From NCBI GenBank assembly GCA_945957605.1, contig CAMFLR010000002.1:358197-422196 (forward strand): a DNA stretch of 64,000 bases, given 5' to 3'. A program made the position numbers and the translations under genes. Of the stretch, positions 13,469 through 19,480 are shown one piece after another; position 1 is the first letter of the stretch; every line of letters starts with the position of its first letter. The stretch is from an uncultured Isosphaeraceae bacterium. Lineage in GTDB: Bacteria; Planctomycetota; Planctomycetia; Isosphaerales; Isosphaeraceae. The notes under the pieces are model-generated. The model made no database searches and was not told the DNA's origin. It saw only the letters and a list, made by a program, of their open reading frames with translations.

Positions 13469-14545
13469 CTACCCATTTGTGCGGCCGGGGCGAACAAGTC
13501 CGGGGATGACATCGACATCAAAATCGGCGGTTTCGCCCCGAGCCAGCTTGATGAGAGCGACTCCGGCCATCGCCGCGTTGTCGGTGCAGAGCGCCATCGG
13601 CGGGATGAAAAGCTCGATTCTTTCGCGCTTCGCCATTTGTTCGAGCTTTTCGCGGAGCCGGCCGTTCGCTGCCACTCCGCCGCCGATGCCCAGCCGTTTC
13701 AGGCCTGTATTTCGCAAAGCCTGGCGCGTTTTGCCGATCAACGCGTCGACGACCGCTTCCTGAAAGCTCGCCGCCACGTCGGCCTGCGCCTGCTCTGTGA
13801 GCGAAACCGCATCGTTCTTGCCATCTTGGCCTTTGATCGCGTAAAGCACCGCGGTTTTAAGGCCTGAGAAGCTGAAGGCGATTCGATCGTCGTGCAAGAA
13901 CGAGCGTGGGAAGCGATAGGCCTTGGGATTGCCATTTCGCGCGATTTTCTCGATCAGTGGTCCGCCGGGATACCCCAGCCCGAGCAAGCTTGCGACCTTA
14001 TCGAAGGCTTCGCCCGCCGCGTCGTCGATTGTGCCGCCGAGTTGTTCGACTTCGAGCGGGCCTCGGCAGACAAACAGATGCGTGTGACCGCCCGACACCA
14101 CCAAGCCGACGCAGGGATAAACCTCGCGATCGGGAAACGCGAGCTGGCAGGCGTAGAGATGGCCTTCGAGGTGGTCGACCGTGACGAGCGGAACGTCGAG
14201 AGCCAGCGCCAAAGCTTTCGCGGCGGTTAGGCCGACGATGAGGGCGCCGACAAGTCCGGGCCGTGTCGCCACGGCGACGGCCCCAACCTGATCGAGCGAA
14301 ACATTCGCACGGCGCAGAGCTTCGTCGATCACCGGCATGATTTGCCGGACGTGCGCACGCGCGGCGATTTCGGGCACGACGCCGCCGAACCGTTCGTGCA
14401 AGTCGATCTGCGACGAGACGACGCTGGAACGAATGGTAGGGACGTCGCGCGGGTCGCCGGTTCCTTCCAGCACGGCGGCGCCGGTTTCGTCGCAGGTCGT
14501 TTCGATCGCCAGCAGCAAAACGGGTGTCTTCGCGTCGGACATCAT
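13469..14545 (-). CDS. tsaD: tRNA N6-adenosine threonylcarbamoyltransferase TsaD
   Basis: This 358-residue protein starts at ATG 14545 ([20 protein letters not shown]); ATG 14542 is equally possible. It has the family signatures AIETTCDETGAAVLEG at the N-terminus, the metal-binding HLEGH motif (VDHLEGHLYACQL), VVSGGHTHL, and GGVAANGRLREKL. TsaD transfers the threonylcarbamoyl group to A37 of ANN-decoding tRNAs with TsaB and TsaE and is nearly universal. The start overlaps the stop of the YyaL-type gene (TAATG), so the two are translationally coupled. Confidence 0.97.
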   Translation of the reverse strand: MMSDAKTPVLLLAIETTCDETGAAVLEGTGDPRDVPTIRSSVVSSQIDLHERFGGVVPEIAARAHVRQIMPVIDEALRRANVSLDQVGAVAVATRPGLVGALIVGLTAAKALALALDVPLVTVDHLEGHLYACQLAFPDREVYPCVGLVVSGGHTHLFVCRGPLEVEQLGGTIDDAAGEAFDKVASLLGLGYPGGPLIEKIARNGNPKAYRFPRSFLHDDRIAFSFSGLKTAVLYAIKGQDGKNDAVSLTEQAQADVAASFQEAVVDALIGKTRQALRNTGLKRLGIGGGVAANGRLREKLEQMAKRERIELFIPPMALCTDNAAMAGVALIKLARGETADFDVDVIPGLVRPGRTNG

Positions 14546-16620
14546 TACGAACCGAGCGCTCCGAGCAAACCCGCGACGCCAACCACAGGCGCGGCGCACG
14601 TCATGTTTTCGCAAACGTAAATCGTCGTGCGGTTGTCGCGCACAGGGCGATCAGCCAGGAGCGGTACGAGTTCGCTCGACGCCGATTCGCCGACCGGCCC
14701 CGGAACGACAACCTTGCTGGGCATAAACTTCGACGCGATCAGTTCGAGCACCGCGCGGAACTCACCGTCGCAGGGCGGCGAGATGATCACGAATTCCTTC
14801 TGTGCGCCAAGCAAGAAATCGAGCGCGATGAGCGCCTGGCCCGCGGCCGTCGGTGCCTTTTCCATGACGACCTTCACCGCTTCGAGCGCTCCTCGGCCGA
14901 TCTTCGCGAAATCGTCGCGGCCGGTGATCACGGCGAGACGTAACAACGCCGTCGCGGCCATTGAATTGGCGGCGGGTGTCGCGTTGTCGTACAGCTCTTT
15001 CGTGCGGGTGATCAGTTCTTCGTGGCTGCTTCCAGTGTAGAAGAAATTGCCGGCCGCTGTATCGAGAAACTCGCGAATCATCACGTCGGCGAGTCTCACG
15101 GCCGCTTCGAGCCAGCGCGGTTCGCCGCAGGTTTCGAACAAGCGAGTAAGGCCATCGATGAGGTTTGCATAGTCGTCGAGATAACCGTTCAGCTTGGCTC
15201 GGCCGTCGCGAATGCTGTGCAACAGCAGGCCGTCGTCGGTGATCATATGACTGAGCAAGTAATCGGCCGATCGCTTGGCGGCGGAGAGATAGCGTTCGTC
15301 GCCCAGAATGCGTGCCCCTTCGGCGAGCGGGGCAATCATGAGGCCATTCCACGACGTGAGGATCTTCGTATCCTTGCCGGGCGGAATGCGGCGCTCGCGA
15401 ATCGAAAGCAGCGTCTGGCGATTCTCGGCCAGTTCGAGCCGCAGTTCGTCCTCTTTGCGTGAGAGCAACGCCGCACACTGGGCGAACGTCTTGGGCAAAT
15501 TGAGGATGTTCGTCTCTTCCCAGTTGCCGTGCTCGGTGACGTTATAAACGTACGCGAACGTTTTGCCCTCTTCGGGGCCAAGCGCCTTGATGATCTCGTC
15601 GAGCGTCCAGACGTAATATTTCCCTTCGACGCCTTCGCTATCGGCGTCTTCGGTGCTGTAAAACCCGCCGCGACGGTCGGTCATGCGGTCGATAATGTAG
15701 TCGAGCGTGTGCCGGGCAACGCGTGCCAGTTCGGAGTCGCGCGTAACCTGATAGGCTTCGAGGTACACGGTCGTCAGCAGCGCGTTGTCGTAAAGCATTT
15801 TCTCGAAGTGCGGCACGAGCCAGCGCTCGTCGGTCGAATAGCGCGCGAAACCGCCGCTGAGCTGGTCGTTGATTCCACCACGCCCCATTTTGTCGAGCGT
15901 GAGTCTGACCATCTGGAGCGGTTGTTCGTCACCGGTGCGGGCATATTGCCGAAGCAAGACGCGCAGGTCCATCGGATGGGGAAACTTCGGTGCCGAGCCG
16001 AATCCGCCGTTCTTGCTGTCAAATTGCCGGATGAGGGCCTGGGTGGCTCGATCGATCAGCTTCGCATCAAGCGCTCCCTCGCCACCGGGAACTTCGCTCA
16101 TCGCCGCGAGTTGCGCGGTCATCTCTTTGGCCGACGTCAGAATCTCGTCCTTGCGATCTTCCCACGCCTTCGCGACGCTTGTGAGCACGCGAGGGAAACC
16201 GGGCATGCCGCGAGAGTCTTCCGGCGGATAATAGGTGCCGCCGAAGAATGGCTTCAATTCGGGTGTCAAAAACACAGACATCGGCCAGCCGCCGTGACCG
16301 GTCATCGCCTGCACGGCCGCCATGTAAATGCTGTCGAGGTCAGGGCGTTCTTCGCGGTCGACTTTGATGTTGACGAAGTGCTCGTTCATGATCGCCGCGG
16401 TATCGGCGCTCTCGAAGCTCTCGCGCTCCATCACGTGGCACCAGTGGCAGGCCGAGTAGCCAATCGACAGGAAGATCGGCTTTCCCTCAGCCTTCGACCG
16501 CGCCAGGGCCTCGGGTCCCCAGGGGTACCAGTCAACCGGGTTATGAGCATGCTGGAGCAAATACGGCGACGTCTCGCCGGCGAGCCGGTTGGCGGGGAAC
16601 TTCGGTTCGGAGTGAGACAT
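14545..16620 (-). CDS. YyaL-type protein (thioredoxin-like DUF255 + (alpha/alpha)6 domain)
   Basis: This is a 691-residue protein. The N-terminal DUF255 thioredoxin-like domain begins with [20 protein letters not shown] and contains the CxxC site [14 protein letters not shown], with Cys58 and Cys61. The remainder is an alpha-helical barrel domain resembling glycoside hydrolases and N-acylglucosamine epimerases (SPATA20/YyaL family), with phrases such as [12 protein letters not shown] and [16 protein letters not shown]. The length is typical for the family. Its function is not established; a redox or sugar-modifying role has been suggested. It ends within the start codon of tsaD. Confidence 0.92.
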
Positions 16621-16884: not shown

Positions 16885-16964
16885 GCTTAACGAACAAGCT
16901 CAGTAGCCCCGCACCTCAGCGACCGTCTCGGCGACTGCTAGGAACACGGTCGCCATTGTTGGCC
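16885..16964 (-). repeat. Degenerate attC-like site C
   Basis: Read on the minus strand, the site begins with GGCCAAC (one mismatch to RYYYAAC), three bases after the stop codon of the gene at 16967, and ends with GTTAAGC, a perfect GTTRRRY core (16891-16885). The inner sequence next to the core (plus strand AACGAACAAGCTCAG) aligns with the same part of site A, AACGACAAACTCAG. The two arms pair poorly. Confidence 0.4.
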
Positions 16965-16966
16965 AA

Positions 16967-17488
16967 TCAGGTGCCGAACGCTTTCGATCCGGCGTACGGA
17001 ATCCACTGATGATGTTCATCGAACGGTAGGAAGTAATCGCTTTGCGCCAACCGATTCAGAAGTGCTTCGTGCACGACGAGCCCTTGCATTGCCCCGTCGC
17101 GGATCTCCTCGGCCCAATCATGATTGAGGTCCTCGAGATCCAGCAAGAAGTCCACGTCCCAGCCGACCATCGCCAGTTCGAAATGAGGGGCGCCTCGAAG
17201 CAGGTCGTAAAGGTAGCTACCCAGTTGCGACAACTGGGCGTCATTTAGCGGGATCCGCTCATGATTCTCATCGATCGCGACGCGGAAACCGACGTTGGCA
17301 GGAATCACCGACACCTGGAACTGCGTCGGCTGGCCATAAGGATAGCCTGCGAAAATCGGAGCATGAATTGTTATCTGGTATCCATCGATCATGACCCCGC
17401 TTGCCCGAACTCTCAACCAATCATGGAAGTTTTCGGCGTGCTGCTTGTTGTCGCCAAAATCGACGACGAGCCCAAACACAATTGCCAT
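16967..17488 (-). CDS. Cassette-borne protein of unknown function
   Basis: This is a 173-residue soluble, acidic protein starting at ATG 17488 (MAIVFGLVVDFGDNKQHAEN). An upstream TTG start would run through the attC core GTTAGGC, so it was rejected. It starts 13 bases after that core and stops three bases before the next attC-like site, the compact packing expected for a promoterless integron gene cassette. It has alternating beta and helical segments and no recognised domain; the phrase HFELAMVGWDVDFLLDLEDL suggests a small globular protein, perhaps immunity-like, which is speculation. Confidence 0.65.
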   Translation of the reverse strand: MAIVFGLVVDFGDNKQHAENFHDWLRVRASGVMIDGYQITIHAPIFAGYPYGQPTQFQVSVIPANVGFRVAIDENHERIPLNDAQLSQLGSYLYDLLRGAPHFELAMVGWDVDFLLDLEDLNHDWAEEIRDGAMQGLVVHEALLNRLAQSDYFLPFDEHHQWIPYAGSKAFGT

Positions 17489-17500
17489 CGGTGATTTACC

Positions 17501-17599
17501 GCCTAACGACAAACTCAGCGGACCGGCACGCCAAGATCACGTTTGATGATACCTGATGGTAACGCAGTAGGCCGGGTCCACTGCAGCGCGGAGTTGGGC
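17501..17599 (-). repeat. Integron-type attC recombination site A
   Basis: The minus strand reads GCCCAAC at 17599-17593 (RYYYAAC) and GTTAGGC at 17507-17501 (GTTRRRY), 99 bases overall. The inner arms are imperfectly complementary: plus-strand CTCAGCGGACCGGC (17514-17527) pairs with GCCGGGTCCACTGCAG (17571-17586), leaving single unpaired bases on one side. Such extrahelical bases are a hallmark of attC sites, which recombine as folded single strands. It lies between two orphan genes in the direction expected for cassettes read on the minus strand. Confidence 0.8.
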
Positions 17600-18120
17600 G
17601 GCATACGCCCTACGAACACCGGACCGTATTGCTTCCACCACTCCTCTTCGCTGGTGACGTGAGGGACGGCCTTGAGTGCGTCAAATGCTGCACCATCGTC
17701 CCTGAGATGCCGCATATCGAACAAGTCGGACAGGTCAAGGGAGGTCAGAATCGTTGCGAGCATGTTGGGATCTTCCAGCCGGGAAAGCAGATTGAGTCGG
17801 CTGTTGGACCACCCGTAATCCACCAGGAGGTATGGGATATGAGACTCGCCAGGATGGACGCGGTGATGATTCCAGTAGAAAGGCCGCCATTGATGCGTGC
17901 ACTTGATCCCGCACCCCGAGGATAAGAGCCGATGATACTCGGTCTCTTGATAACGGATCGATTTCGCCAGGGGATACCCGAAGCACGTACGGAATTTTGA
18001 GAGTCGGAGGAGGCCGCAGGCCGTGCAGTAGTAACGATCGTCGTCGCTGCCGATCGCGCAGGCCAAGAAGACAGCGACGGCAACCAGAATTAGACAGATG
18101 TGGCGAATGCGAAGACGCAT
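17515..18120 (-). CDS. Cassette-borne membrane-anchored protein of unknown function
   Basis: This is a 201-residue protein. An N-terminal signal or anchor (MRLRIRHICLILVAVAVFLA) is followed by a Cys-rich part with CTACG and a Cys near residue 45 and a CGIKC pair near 70-74, possibly metal-binding or disulfide-linked. The last 27 or so residues (from NSALQWTRPTAL on) are encoded inside attC site A, with the TGA in the attC arm, so the C-terminus is probably read-through into the recombination site. This is common in integron cassettes. No family recognised. Confidence 0.65.
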   Translation of the reverse strand: MRLRIRHICLILVAVAVFLACAIGSDDDRYYCTACGLLRLSKFRTCFGYPLAKSIRYQETEYHRLLSSGCGIKCTHQWRPFYWNHHRVHPGESHIPYLLVDYGWSNSRLNLLSRLEDPNMLATILTSLDLSDLFDMRHLRDDGAAFDALKAVPHVTSEEEWWKQYGPVFVGRMPPNSALQWTRPTALPSGIIKRDLGVPVR

Positions 18121-18145
18121 TCAATACGACTCAATGACAAGTGCC

Positions 18146-18250
18146 GCCTAACGAGGCGCTCAGTTGCGGCACTATGTTTGGCGTGATCCTTTGAAGCACA
18201 ATGAGTCAAAGTCCGCCCTGCTATCATAGCCTTAGCATCGCGCGTTAGAT
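18146..18250 (-). repeat. attC-like site B
   Basis: On the plus strand, GCCTAAC at 18146-18152 and GTTAGAT at 18244-18250 both fit the attC core consensus. The sequence after the first core, GAGGCGCTCAG, matches the L box pattern of site A (CTCAG). Arm complementarity is weaker than in site A (GCGC and CTATG/CATAG pairs). It lies at the upstream edge of the cassette holding the 201-residue protein. Confidence 0.5.
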
Positions 18251-18265
18251 AAGCAGAGAGAACAC

Positions 18266-19480
18266 TCAAACTTCGGCCTGCTCCTGCTCTTTCCGCACTT
18301 CACTCCCACCAAAATGCGGTCCCGCCAGTTTGTGCTGGGCTGATTTCGTCGCAATCGCCACGATCCGTTCGGCCGCACGTTCCGAGGCACCCGGCTGCGC
18401 GACTTTCTCCCTCAACTCAGCCAACGCCTGCGACGCTTTTTCGCGTTCTTCAGGCTTCGTCAACCAGGTTTCGGCCCAGTCGGCGAGCTTGTCGGACACG
18501 TCGATCGGTGTGAGGTATTCGGGGAAAAGCTCGGCGTCGGCGAGGAGATTCACCAGGCTGATGTATTTCGACTTGATGAAATGCCGCGCCACCCAGAGGT
18601 CGAAGTGTTTGATCTTGTAGAGCACGACCGTCGGCAAGGCTTCGAGCATCAATTCGAGCCCAACTGAGCCGGAGACTGCCCAGGCGGCGCGGGCGGATTT
18701 CATCAATTCCAGTGTACGGCCGGCGTGCAGTTCGAGGTTCAGGCCCGAAACATTCGCTTGATCGACGATTTCCTGGGCCAGCAGGCGATGCCGCTCGTGA
18801 AGGCAGGCGATTGCGAATCGGACGTTCGGCACTTTCTGCGCGAGCAGTTTTGCGGCCTTGAGCATGATCGGCAAGTTGCGCGTCACTTCCTGGGTGCGGG
18901 AGCCGGGGAGAATCGCCACCAGCGGCGTAGGATTCGCTTTTTGCGCGTCCAGGAACTCGGCGTTCACGGGGCGATCGGCCTGTTCGTCAAAGAACGGGTG
19001 GCCGACGTATGTGGCCCCTTCGAGACCGCGCTTGGTATACCATTCGGGCTCGAATGGCAGGCTGCAGAGCACCTCGTTGACGGTGCGTTTCATCTTGTTC
19101 ACACGCCAGCCGGCCCAGGCCCAGAGCTGCGGCGGAACATAGTAAATCACCGGAATCCCCTGGCGATGCGCCCGCTTGGCGATGTGCCAGTGGAAACCGG
19201 GGTAGTCGATGAGCACGACGGCGTCGGGCTTGTGGTCGCGGAAGTAGGCTTCGGCTTCGTCGGCGAGGCGGAAGAAGGTGCGAATGTTCCAGAGAACTCG
19301 CATGAACCACATGACCGCCAGCTCGACGAGCGGGTAAATCAGCGTCGCGCCGGCGGCTTTCATGTGATCACCGCCGAATCCGACGACTTCGACGTCGGGA
19401 CAGCGGGTTTGAATCGCGCGGATCAAATTGGCGGCGTGAACGTCGCCCGAGGGCTCACCGGCGGAGATGAAAAGGCGCAT
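18266..19480 (-). CDS. lpxB: Lipid-A-disaccharide synthase LpxB
   Basis: This 404-residue glycosyltransferase (GT19) condenses UDP-2,3-diacylglucosamine with lipid X to make the lipid A disaccharide. Family motifs are all present: MRLFISAGEPSGDVHAANLI at the start, VLIDYPGFHWHIAKRAHRQG, VIYYVPPQLWAWAGWRVNKM, LPGSRTQEV, and the C-terminal SGSVGLELMLEALPTVVLYK. It acts at the inner face of the cytoplasmic membrane. It is separated from lpxD/lpxI by about 7 kb. The last part is Gln/Glu-rich and variable. Confidence 0.97.
   Translation of the reverse strand: MRLFISAGEPSGDVHAANLIRAIQTRCPDVEVVGFGGDHMKAAGATLIYPLVELAVMWFMRVLWNIRTFFRLADEAEAYFRDHKPDAVVLIDYPGFHWHIAKRAHRQGIPVIYYVPPQLWAWAGWRVNKMKRTVNEVLCSLPFEPEWYTKRGLEGATYVGHPFFDEQADRPVNAEFLDAQKANPTPLVAILPGSRTQEVTRNLPIMLKAAKLLAQKVPNVRFAIACLHERHRLLAQEIVDQANVSGLNLELHAGRTLELMKSARAAWAVSGSVGLELMLEALPTVVLYKIKHFDLWVARHFIKSKYISLVNLLADAELFPEYLTPIDVSDKLADWAETWLTKPEEREKASQALAELREKVAQPGASERAAERIVAIATKSAQHKLAGPHFGGSEVRKEQEQAEV

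Follow-up and report, generated by a model that had tools for sequence, protein, structure and literature searches.

An integron cassette array that is small, decayed and devoid of an integrase very probably lies between lpxB and a YyaL-type gene in the genome of this uncultured Isosphaeraceae bacterium, as an array of the CALIN type or as the remnant of one with a single attC site. Integron cassettes are inserted and excised by the integrase IntI, which acts on folded attC strands. The array was analysed within a 64-kb stretch of the genome (hereafter, the window), in which both strands of 16885–18268 were inspected, and positions refer to this window unless a contig or locus is named. It consists of two minus-strand cassettes bounded by one complete attC site (site A) and two half sites (B and C). 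An attC cassette array without an integrase had been proposed here from the letters of the sequence, and this proposal is borne out by the match of site A to a covariance model and by the finding that the host genome contains no recognisable IntI.

attC sites of integrase-bearing relatives

Thirty attC sites of about 100 nt were collected with a simple attC finder from the integrase loci of four genomes of the family. The covariance model (R1) was trained on attC sites taken from arrays with an integrase in other family genomes, with site A left out; the R' ends of the 30 collected sites, all of which come from other genomes, gave a weight matrix for this end. The consensus, GCCTAACCTCGCGCTGCAGCGGACC...GGTCCGCTGAGCTTnGTCGTTAGGC, provides a usable description of attC in the Isosphaeraceae. 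In three relatives (G056, G057 and G024) regular attC arrays lead away from a divergent integrase, mostly with one small ORF ahead of each site, and the R''-to-R'' order and the direction of the genes are those of the host array. The attI ends of the relatives read ACAAGGTTAGGC or TCACTGTTAGGC and have no CTGAG arm. In G024, a short segment bounded by GTTAGGCGGC adjoins the integrase (L121, 10680–10960) and contains the attI-type end (CTAATCACTGTTAGGCGG) twice; it resembles a cassette bearing an attI-type end.

Site A is a complete attC site

Site A (17501–17599, minus strand, 99 nt) is composed of R'' GCCCAAC, L'' GCTGCAGTGGACC with an extra base G, L' GGTCCGCTGAG and R' GTTAGGC. The pairing from core to core has one C.A mismatch, and the arms (GCT-G-CAGTGGACC and GGTCCGCTGAG) pair with an extrahelical base that is the same in nearly all of the 30 attC sites from relatives. 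The R1 model matches site A over its full length and in the correct orientation with a score of 67.4 bits (E 1.8e-14 in the window and 2.5e-12 genome-wide). This is the sole convincing match within the 8.8 Mb host genome, where a marginal second match (G000:C15:186771-186862; L161:3772-3863) scores 25.5 bits (E 0.08 genome-wide). The site is 78% identical by BLAST, over 106 nt, to an attC site adjoining the integrase of G056. A nucleotide search of its own genome returned the self-match only, and an Rfam scan of 14–21 kb gave no match.

The complementarity of the arms was equalled by 5 of 2000 shuffled sequences. The fold energy of site A by itself is ordinary (z -1.4), and perfect-core pairs spaced 50–190 nt apart occur eight times in the window, so that bare core pairs carry little weight; cores and folding alone were therefore not taken as proof. 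Site A also overlaps a terminator-like hairpin. Its identity as an attC site, which the original prediction had called convincing from its cores and from the extra base in its arms, is settled by the match to the independent model. A covariance-model search had been put forward as a check on the array, and our own model answers it with this strong match.

Sites B and C retain the R' half of attC

Site B (CTGAGCTTGTTCGTTAAGC; 16885–16903) and site C (CTGAGCGCCTCGTTAGGC; 18146–18163), both on the minus strand, each comprise the R'-side half of an attC site and share the form CTGAG-n-CGTTARGC. With the R' matrix, site B is the top match in the window at 25.9 bits, with the runner-up at 9.1; when the spacer of the matrix is shortened by one base, site A ranks first in the window (27.4 bits) and site C second (18.3), followed by a score of 10.9. 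The best score in 0.51 Mb of planctomycete background, with both strands counted, was 16.4 and lies inside an integrase locus, and 600 randomised versions of the region gave a 99th percentile of 11.1 and a maximum of 20.8. The pattern CTGAGN{3,7}CGTTARGC, which was derived from sites A, B and C themselves, occurs four times in the host genome, and three of these occurrences are the sites in question, all on one strand.

The complete R''-L''-L'-R' structure was found in neither half site, and support is confined to their L'-R' halves. Covariance model scores amount to 4.7 bits for B (16885–16953) and 11.5 bits for C (18146–18182), and neither the model nor the matrix revealed a convincing R'' half at either site; that of B is lost or unrecognisable. 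A candidate collapsed left half of C, directly upstream (18157–18182), scores 5.2 bits, near background. Pairing of C with sequence extending to 18250 (left core 18244–18250, 105 nt) was rejected, as its arm score of 8.4 was matched by 791 of 2000 shuffles, and so was the reading of C as an attI end, given the missing CTGAG arm in the attI ends of relatives. Because their R' halves are strong, their R'' halves unconvincing, and C unlike the known attI ends, B and C are best read as decayed attC sites. Both had been described as degenerate attC sites, and their R' halves are indeed real; the R'' halves assigned to them find no support, and the proposed pairing of C behaves like shuffled sequence.

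Organisation of the cassettes

With canonical cleavage at G/TTRRRY, cassette 2 (17507–18151, minus strand, 645 bp) would run from the TT of the C core to the G of the R' core of site A, and cassette 1 (16891–17506, minus strand, 616 bp) from the TT of that R' core to the G of the B core. Both lengths fall within the span of the cassettes of relatives. The spaces between the sites are filled by ORFs; each cassette has one ORF with the attC at its 3' end, in the orientation seen in the IntI arrays of G056 and G024. The ORF of cassette 2, as given in the list of open reading frames (17515–18120, minus strand, 201 aa), enters site A and has its stop codon in the L' arm, such that the last ~28 residues of the protein (PPNSALQWTRP...) are encoded by the attC site. 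This protein has an N-terminal hydrophobic segment and a CxxC motif. The ORF of cassette 1, from the same list (16967–17488, minus strand), encodes 173 aa from an ATG at 17488, or 181 aa from a TTG at 17512, and ends 64 bp before the L'-R' half of B. The original prediction had pointed to tight packing of genes against sites, a stop inside an attC arm and a common orientation, and we see all three.

Neither cassette protein has a clear match in Pfam, PADLOC, NCBIfam, the PDB, plasmids or viral contigs, and for cassette 2 no clear homologue was found among 392 genomes of the phylum, plasmids and viral contigs. The cassette 1 protein has a single distant homologue within the phylum (G170; 30% identity, E 5e-18) and none in the 44 other genomes of the family. 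The homologue begins at the equivalent ATG, which supports ATG 17488 as the start of the cassette 1 protein, and there is no attC site near it; neither cassette gene was found adjoining an attC site elsewhere. The AlphaFold model of the cassette 1 protein (pLDDT 37) was too poor for use.

The lpxB–yyaL junction

The array is flanked by a gene at 18266–19480 (minus strand), which we take to be lpxB from an initial reading that agrees with the sequence, and by the YyaL-type gene at 14545–16620 (minus strand). The former has a homologue in 40 of 40 relatives, with 78% identity in the congener (G001), and the latter lies directly downstream of it in at least seven other genomes of the family, where the gap between the two genes is about 0.1 to 1.1 kb. 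Those seven loci hold no stand-out attC-type R' motif (best 10.7 bits) and no cassette proteins, and the array is thus specific to the host lineage. Conservation of the two cassette genes with the same flanks, which would have spoken against a cassette array, was not seen in the relatives examined. In the congener this gap is occupied by 580 bp that are unrelated in sequence, so the boundaries of the insertion cannot be fixed exactly. In two relatives (L023, 2665–3720; L031, 418–1515) other unrelated ORFs, without attC motifs, lie between lpxB and yyaL; the intergenic content of this junction is thus variable.

The gene order is lpxB, cassette 2, cassette 1, yyaL. As the genes share one direction and no stand-out promoter was found at the array, the cassettes would most likely be expressed by readthrough from lpxB.

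Integrase search and distribution of attC sites

IntI was detected with the model TIGR02249 at a cut-off of 265 bits. None was found in the whole host assembly (~95% complete, 33 contigs), in which the best matches, at 73.5 and 72.9 bits, are proteins of 314 and 331 aa that are presumably XerC and XerD; comparable matches below the cut-off are given by the Xer proteins of control genomes. The integrase is likely absent from the host genome, allowing that a gap in an assembly of ~95% completeness could hide one. The nearest tyrosine recombinase (C2:354309-354833), ~3.4 kb beyond the start of the window, scores 29 bits with the IntI model, and no intI with an attI adjoining the array was found. 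The search for intI suggested in the original prediction thus came out negative for the host, though relatives do have IntI, with scores above the cut-off in 9 of the 45 genomes of the family. It had left open the choice between a CALIN and the edge of a chromosomal integron; the CALIN-type reading, or that of a remnant with a single attC, is supported, and the edge is disfavoured because the genome yielded neither an integrase nor another convincing attC site, and because C is unlike the attI ends of relatives' integrons.

The Isosphaeraceae-type attC model matches 33 of 45 genomes of the family and 51 of 118 of the class. The congener has no IntI; its attC sites number about five, lie scattered, and in several cases have a broken core (GCTAGGC, GTCAGAC), a picture that fits decay following loss of the integrase. 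The attC sites of this genome (L162, L163, L164, L165) include a pair immediately downstream of a gene resembling glycogen phosphorylase (L163, 5716–6389). In another family, the single-contig genomes G035, G443 and G445 have 18–30 matches to the attC model. On G057:C1, one integrase was detected, at 2.71 Mb, together with at least four separate attC clusters and single sites (about 2.05, 2.70, 3.37 and 6.93 Mb), which suggests that several cassette clusters of this genome are located far from the integrase. Within GTDB, a pattern with too strict a core gave no matches, and a second pattern returned 14 stretches, nearly all in planctomycetes; the same attC type is present in records of Tautonia, Aquisphaera and an Isosphaeraceae MAG.

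Origin of the array

We infer that two promoterless cassettes in tandem, in the same orientation and with an attC after each ORF, were inserted between lpxB and yyaL after the host lineage had split from its known relatives. The insertion would have proceeded by IntI-type recombination of folded attC strands at the core G/TT, with an integrase that is now missing from the assembly. With the integrase gone, the cassettes would be frozen, and decay would account for the state of B and C; site A alone may still be recombinable in trans, as B and C are without their R'' halves. An integrase acting in trans is able to mobilise CALIN cassettes (PMC12444791, PMC9668308).

Both off-target insertion and descent from a whole integron have been proposed as origins of CALINs (PMC8618304). 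It is conceivable, at close to an even chance, that an IntI from another replicon or from an earlier resident integron put the cassettes at a non-classical site downstream of lpxB, and that a full integron was never present at this junction. Neither side of the lpxB–yyaL linkage is disrupted, and neither intI nor attI has left a trace there; the literature counts off-target IntI insertion among the origins put forward for CALINs (PMC8618304), and experimental insertion at attG is described by Loot et al. 2024, as cited in PMC12444791 and PMC12901181. The attC clusters of G057 that lie far from its sole detected integrase point the same way. The first boundary, C, nevertheless bears an attC-type L'-R' half, which argues that more cassettes were formerly present, with at least one preceding the two that remain; a single attG insertion would then be insufficient, and the cassettes would have had to be inserted serially or as an array.

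It is possible, at a lower probability, that a complete chromosomal integron once resided at lpxB–yyaL and lost intI and most of its cassettes in place. The decayed neighbours of site A, the scattered decayed sites of the congener and the patchy occurrence of IntI (9 of 45) would agree with such a loss, but no examined relative has an integron at this junction, the positions of IntI and lpxB differ, and no intI fragment lies nearby, the nearest tyrosine recombinase reaching only 29 bits. From the intact flanks and the lack of an intI trace, we slightly favour off-target or array insertion over loss in place.

A dispersed, non-mobile repeat of the REP or terminator-like kind that merely resembles attC is very improbable: the overlapping hairpin and the ordinary fold energy of site A could be read in this way, but in three relatives the same element is found in regular arrays adjoining IntI, each copy accompanied by one small ORF, and it is not dispersed in the host, where one strong and one marginal match occur in 8.8 Mb. 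That the core motifs are a coincidence picked out by eye from ordinary intergenic sequence, as the eight perfect-core pairs of the window and the failure of B and C against the full model might suggest, has a negligible chance of being true: it is refuted for site A by its genome-wide E-value, and the R' halves of B and C score free of background.

Relation to known systems

CALINs, defined in IntegronFinder as clusters of attC sites without an integron-integrase, are common in bacteria, and the default of IntegronFinder 2 requires two or more attC sites in close proximity (PMC9024848). The host array shares with them its tandem attC-bounded cassettes, its chromosomal location, its decay and a genome without IntI, but with one complete attC site and two flanking half sites it falls below the two-site default, and would for this reason not be reported as a CALIN. 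A covariance model for planctomycete attC sites, and integrons in these bacteria, are on record (PMC8352920); we found nothing specific to Isosphaeraceae in the open literature. As in the sedentary chromosomal integrons of planctomycetes, the attC type of the host is the one that stands beside IntI in G056, G057 and G024, whereas the host array has neither intI nor attI and only two cassettes. In Xanthomonas citri pv. citri, a CALIN without integrase comprises two cassettes adjoining secD (PMC12444791). Like the host array, it consists of a pair of orphan cassettes next to a housekeeping gene and has no intI; it differs in phylum and attC type, and in being conserved across strains, whereas the host array is seen in one genome.

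The host array is another case of the known planctomycete integrons and CALINs, an ordinary, partly decayed leftover of gene capture. For the wider field it adds one more example of stranded cassettes and no new mechanism, and the independent model confirms that a decayed cassette array is recognisable from its sequence. The occurrence of the attC type in 33 of 45 genomes, against nine with an integrase, suggests that cassettes without an integrase are common across the Isosphaeraceae. These counts, with 51 of 118 in the class, would also fit, without proving it, a broader reading that we consider rather unlikely, namely that the Planctomycetia may hold many small integrase-less cassette clusters behind housekeeping genes. 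If true, such clusters would have been placed by an integrase that acted in trans or has since been lost, the host locus would be one example among them, and the cassettes would be expressed from host operons rather than from an integron promoter.
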